Assembly (NCBI GenBank): GCA_029204225.1
Contig: CM055111.1
Coordinates: 1,746,421 to 1,810,420 of the forward strand
DNA from: Diphasiastrum complanatum
Lineage: Eukaryota; Streptophyta; Lycopodiopsida; Lycopodiales; Lycopodiaceae
Reading direction: 5' to 3'
DNA: 64,000 bases
Part shown: positions 7,175 to 56,472 of the stretch, piece after piece
How the letters are laid out: every line of letters begins with the position of its first letter
Position numbering within the stretch: the first letter of the stretch is position 1
The notes under the pieces: generated by a model
Database searches by the model: none
Seen by the model: the letters and a program-made list of their open reading frames with translations, nothing else
What the model was told of the DNA's origin: nothing
Translations under genes and position numbers: made by a program

Positions 7175-7262
7175 ATGGAGCTCAAGGACAAAAATGATTT
7201 TTTAACTATTGCTGACAACAATAATCTGATATCCATATGTGGTTTTGGATCACTTCTCTCTG
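7175..7262 (+). CDS. GGCT-like gene, exon 1 (start and GFGSLLS motif)
   Basis: ATG at 7175 opens MELKDKNDFLT, and the segment ends in ISICGFGSLLS followed by donor G|GTAACA. The frame stays open upstream to about 7109, beside an AG, so this could instead be an internal exon with more 5' coding sequence. I chose this ATG because GGCT-like proteins usually carry the glycine-rich FGS motif close to the N terminus. The last base (G, phase 1) joins the TC of exon 2 to give valine. Confidence 0.62.

Positions 7263-56472: not shown

Follow-up and report, generated by a model that had tools for sequence, protein, structure and literature searches.

The 64-kb stretch of the clubmoss Diphasiastrum complanatum genome analyzed here (contig 20, 1,746,421-1,810,420; hereafter, the window) carries eight of the nine coding exons of a single gene that encodes a 314-aa protein. 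A public protein search with a peptide joined from four open segments of the window retrieved, as the top match, the deposited D. complanatum protein O6H91_20G002900 (P0001). In a tblastn search with P0001, the C-terminal part of the protein, from approximately residue 69, was found on eight + strand segments of the window, and a search for AG/GT borders near these matches yielded a single chain for the last seven exons. The first exon in the window has three possible acceptors, of which the genomic sequence of exon 1 selects 7135. Within the window, words of five residues taken from residues 1-70 match at six scattered places, none of them on the + strand before exon 2; exon 1 was then located upstream of the window by a genome search, where it is followed by GT and preceded by an in-frame stop at contig 20: 1,744,959.

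When joined, the nine exons form a 945-nt coding sequence, stop codon included, that contains no premature stop or frameshift and whose translation is identical, letter for letter, to the deposited protein. The gene spans 57,787 bp of the + strand, of which 98.4% is intron. The part within the window encodes residues 69-314 (245 whole codons and part of codon 69); all introns in the window have canonical GT-AG borders (365, 248, 15,846, 4,329, 277, 14,726 and 12,808 nt), and the reading phase is continuous along the exon chain. The exons and the introns of note are as follows, with the number of tblastn relatives (see below) that match each exon in the window.

Exon 1: contig 20: 1745106-1745311, outside the window, +; residues 1-68 and 2 nt of codon 69
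Intron 1: 8,243 nt, partly in the window, +
Exon 2: 7135..7262, +; residues 69-111, phase 2 start, phase 1 end; 6/6 relatives
Exon 3: 7628..7758, +; residues 112-155; 6/6 relatives
Exon 4: 8007..8084, +; residues 156-181; 6/6 relatives
Intron 4: 8085..23930, +; 15,846 nt, with hAT-like and Copia-type pieces
Exon 5: 23931..23975, +; 45 nt, residues 182-196, contains the presumed catalytic Glu189; 6/6 relatives
Exon 6: 28305..28349, +; 45 nt, residues 197-211; 0/6 relatives
Exon 7: 28627..28678, +; residues 212-228, Gly229 codon split G/GA; 6/6 relatives
Intron 7: 28679..43404, +; 14,726 nt, with a palindrome, a 349-bp tandem repeat and an antisense hAT-type relic
Exon 8: 43405..43501, +; completes Gly229 and continues through His260, plus the TG of Cys261; 6/6 relatives
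Intron 8: 43502..56309, +; 12,808 nt, with Gypsy-type pol pieces and a Copia-type gag piece
Exon 9: 56310..56472, +; includes the stop codon; 6/6 relatives

The initial annotation had proposed a single host gene spread over long introns, and the exon chain, its phase and the identity to the deposited protein bear this out. The border search also confirmed the AG/GT borders and compatible phases ascribed to the segments; the two joins described as exact are so (G+GA at 28678/43405, across 14,726 nt, and TG+T at 43501/56310, across 12,808 nt), and the RYGG-stop terminus lies in exon 9. The size of the gene had been underestimated: seven segments were counted where there are eight coding exons in the window and nine in the gene, the putative start at 7175 is the codon for Met82 within exon 2, and the coding part in the window, put at ~217 residues, comprises residues 69-314.

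Support from relatives and from the genome

The deposited protein could itself be a prediction from this same sequence, which makes independent tests of the exon structure important. A tblastn comparison of the window with six relatives (from Selaginella, a moss, a liverwort, a fern, an Arabidopsis hybrid and Mercurialis) yielded 42 matches at E<=0.0105, all 42 on the exons of this gene and 0 elsewhere. Exon 6, matched by none of the six, is supported by the deposited protein and by models in Selaginella and Nicotiana that lack it.

The splice junctions were assessed using an alignment of 170 relatives to P0001, the best-listed rows of two protein searches. At residue 96 or later, this alignment contains 17 insertions or deletions (indels) of at least 6 residues, in 14 of the 170 relatives; these events were picked by hand, and indels in the N-terminal region were omitted, as were the ones in P0142 (89-95) and P0158 (94). 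At a tolerance of one residue, exon 6 is missing from a Selaginella model and exon 5 from Arachis and Diospyros models; in Nicotiana models, either of these exons or the two together are missing; and Brassica and Prunus models contain additional residues at junctions 5/6, 6/7 and 7/8. Altogether, 11 of the 17 indels match junctions, whereas 20,000 random placements gave 0.49 matches on average and never more than 4. This figure is indicative, the control ignoring relatedness and four of the rows being Nicotiana. The indels support four of the eight junctions (4/5, 5/6, 6/7 and 7/8). We infer that at least these four predate the split between lycophytes and seed plants; the Selaginella evidence concerns junctions 5/6 and 6/7 only.

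Exons 5 and 6, both in-frame and 45 nt long, are the ones missing, singly or together, from some of the Selaginella, Nicotiana, Arachis and Diospyros models.

A search of the genome (1,744,706,496 bases) with P0001 produced six matches, all on contig 20 and each corresponding to one of six exons of this gene; the short exons 5, 6 and 7 (45-52 nt) had no match of their own. All 10 first-look candidates were scored, and no second copy was found. A full-length paralogue elsewhere, which the initial annotation had named as evidence against a single gene, was thus sought in the plant's own genome and did not turn up. Taken together, the data indicate a nuclear D. complanatum gene with no paralogue found, and its nine-exon structure is assigned with high confidence.

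Several points, in addition to the limits of the random-placement control, weigh against this conclusion. The gene structure was read from genomic sequence, and the identity to the deposited protein is not independent evidence, since this assembly, in one version or another, is the probable basis of that protein's prediction. Six of the 17 indels lie off the junctions at the one-residue tolerance (P0006 three times, P0057, P0073 and P0112), and junctions 1/2, 2/3, 3/4 and 8/9 have no complete indel match. The P0112 indel fits a junction at a tolerance of two residues; the Manihot deletion (P0057) ends at junction 8/9 but starts off any junction.

The predicted product

The family of P0001 includes 783 database proteins at E<=0.001 and, among the best 120 of these, ranges from mosses and lycophytes to flowering plants. 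Attempts to name it from sequence gave nothing credible: with Pfam, P0001 and three relatives matched no family at E<=1, and 24 members gave two chance rows; NCBIfam returned, for four proteins, a single row far under the cut-off (MTB_hemophore, E 0.18); and the PDB sequence search gave two rows (E 0.85-0.9) that we consider to be chance. No Pfam model of the GGCT-like fold superfamily (GGCT, ChaC, GGACT/AIG2, BtrG) matched any of the 24 members at E<=1, and a sequence profile of the family matched no PDB chain.

In structure comparison, the predicted fold of the product is GGCT-like, as had been proposed at the outset. The GFGSLL motif (105-110) and Glu189 are invariant across 24 aligned sequences, and are presumed to be equivalent to the known glycine-rich substrate-loop motif and the catalytic Glu, respectively. 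This assignment has to be set against the modest Foldseek TM-scores for GGCT (0.31 by model, 0.55 by target) and the lack of a match of the protein to a Pfam or NCBIfam GGCT model, or of a credible PDB sequence match. In structural alignments with human GGCT (PDB 3cry) and ChaC2 (6ky1), the product shows 13-15% identity, with no profile match. On balance, we lean slightly toward a plastid-targeted protein that would act on a gamma-glutamyl substrate via a GGCT-like fold, with Glu189 as the catalyst.

Among bacteria, 17 pattern stretches in genome contigs were considered and none was confirmed as a relative, and a search of plasmids with the Selaginella protein detected no relative. In a literature search for a plant BtrG-like protein, at the level of listed entries, one set of entries did not mention BtrG and another dealt with animal or general glutathione topics. 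Two Brassica cretica proteins, P0121 (503 aa) and P0122 (435 aa), score 655 and 611 bits, against 371 for the next, as if the domain were doubled in them. Conserved over land plants, with no Pfam family and not known to have a tested function, the protein appears to be a reasonable target for biochemistry.

Contents of the introns

A Pfam scan of 40 of the 112 stop-to-stop frames of at least 90 aa in the window, together with protein similarity within the window, identified transposon-derived sequence in the long introns, Pfam domains being present in each of introns 4, 7 and 8:

14036-14398, intron 4, antisense: hAT-like piece (within-window protein comparison)
~17.4-18.0 kb, intron 4: second Copia-type piece (within-window protein comparison)
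21.8-23.0 kb, intron 4: Copia-type pieces; gag-pre-integrase and SH3 domains above the cut-off, integrase core below
40055-41385, intron 7, antisense: hAT-type relic (Pfam)
46565-48770, intron 8, antisense: Gypsy-type pol pieces; RNase H above the cut-off, reverse transcriptase and protease below
52039-52359, intron 8, sense: Copia-type gag piece

Five of these six elements are antisense to the gene. In the hAT-type relic, DUF659 is well above the cut-off at 40,849-41,385, and a dimerisation match at 40,055-40,552 is below it. The labels Copia and Gypsy, and hAT for DUF659 and the domain order, are in part presumptive. The description of the introns as transposon-packed in the initial annotation holds for introns 4, 7 and 8; in intron 5, Pfam found nothing in the one frame scanned out of three of at least 90 aa, and in the section of intron 1 that lies within the window, three scanned frames contained a single sub-threshold zinc knuckle. 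No RNA families or tRNAs were detected in the window.

Several other repeats accompany these elements. The Copia-type gag piece of intron 8 and another downstream of the gene (59451-60212) are 79.5% identical over 88 residues, and antisense Copia-type pieces are present at 60058-61065. Intron 8 also contains an array of 23-bp repeats that have diverged (TATCGAAAAATTCTGATTTTGGG) at 54045-54539.

Intron 7 contains a nearly perfect 3.7-kb palindrome (31270-34958), the ends of which consist of CATAGTTGCA in inverted orientation, beside (TA)n runs. The arms are 92.9-96.6% alike, and a 14-copy CT run of the left arm corresponds to a 164-copy AG run of the right arm. The center encodes a piece that is 62.5% identical over 48 residues to the translation of 39,893-40,036; the latter lies next to the frame that bears the weak match to a hAT dimerisation domain, and it is through this adjacency that the palindrome is apparently hAT-derived. 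In RNA folding, the central 1,000 nt form a nearly unbroken duplex (-998.7 kcal/mol; 20 shuffled sequences average -335.4), so that each round of transcription would yield a long hairpin, a possible source of small RNAs. Directly past the palindrome lies a tandem array (35341-36677) with a 349-bp period, 3.7 copies and 79% matches.

Origin of the long introns and comparison with other systems

The scenario that we favor is that old introns would have grown through insertion of Copia, Gypsy and hAT transposons while the exons and splice sites were kept under selection, with the spliceosome removing 56,842 nt to leave the 945-nt coding sequence. Four junctions are common to Selaginella or flowering-plant models, and therefore the present length of the introns may be younger than the introns themselves.

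Of the alternatives, the one that survives best, albeit as an unlikely one, is that the gene is real but its long introns split it into at least two transcripts, through premature polyadenylation or internal promoters, such that the full-length mRNA is rare; the three introns of more than 12 kb with transposon sequence, in a gene read from DNA, are compatible with this possibility, whereas the nine intact exons, all in phase, suggest selection on the whole protein. Less likely still, the intron lengths could be wrong through assembly errors in repeats, for which intron 7, with its near-perfect palindrome, 164-copy AG run and 349-bp tandem array, would be a suitable place; the palindrome arms differ, however, by ~3-7%, unlike one stretch read twice. 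It is extremely improbable that these exons are the dispersed remnants of a defunct gene whose functional copy lies elsewhere: the transposon sequence left in introns 4, 7 and 8 would fit such decay, but the 945-nt frame is intact, the splice borders are canonical and the genome search, with all 10 first-look candidates scored, found no second copy.

The window confirms that introns of 15 kb do not prevent a small conserved gene from being recognized in raw sequence, and the lycophytes would now supply one more example of intron growth driven by transposons. The palindrome invites comparison with maize Mu killer (PMC3440606), the nearest known case, which is likewise an inverted duplication of DNA-transposon sequence with the potential to form a long hairpin RNA; the present palindrome differs in being apparently hAT-related rather than Mutator-related and in being intronic. 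In the same paper, read-through as a model for Mu killer is itself under dispute. It is highly doubtful that the clubmoss gene acts as a constant supplier of silencing directed at hAT elements, in the manner of a Mu killer-like locus placed in an intron; if it did, the hairpin would have to be processed to small RNAs for anti-hAT silencing. At the level of listed entries, the literature on intronic inverted repeats offered nothing specific.

With respect to intron size, the closest parallels come from other plants. In the fern Ceratopteris richardii, 17,745 introns of more than 10 kb and 706 genes of more than 100 kb are ascribed to intronic transposons (PMC9477723), as the long introns are here, although the clubmoss case concerns a lycophyte and one 58-kb gene. 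Introns of Brainea average 4,939 bp (PMC12868710). Across green plants, the length of MSH1, a gene unrelated to this one and far longer, similarly correlates with intronic transposons, reaching 805,861 bp in Cycas, with a longest intron of 101,025 bp (PMC10487979). The gene structure described here is real but ordinary for large-genome plants, and its gene model had already been deposited; next to the introns of these other plants, there is nothing unusual about a 1.74-Gb genome having three introns of 12.8-15.8 kb in one gene.
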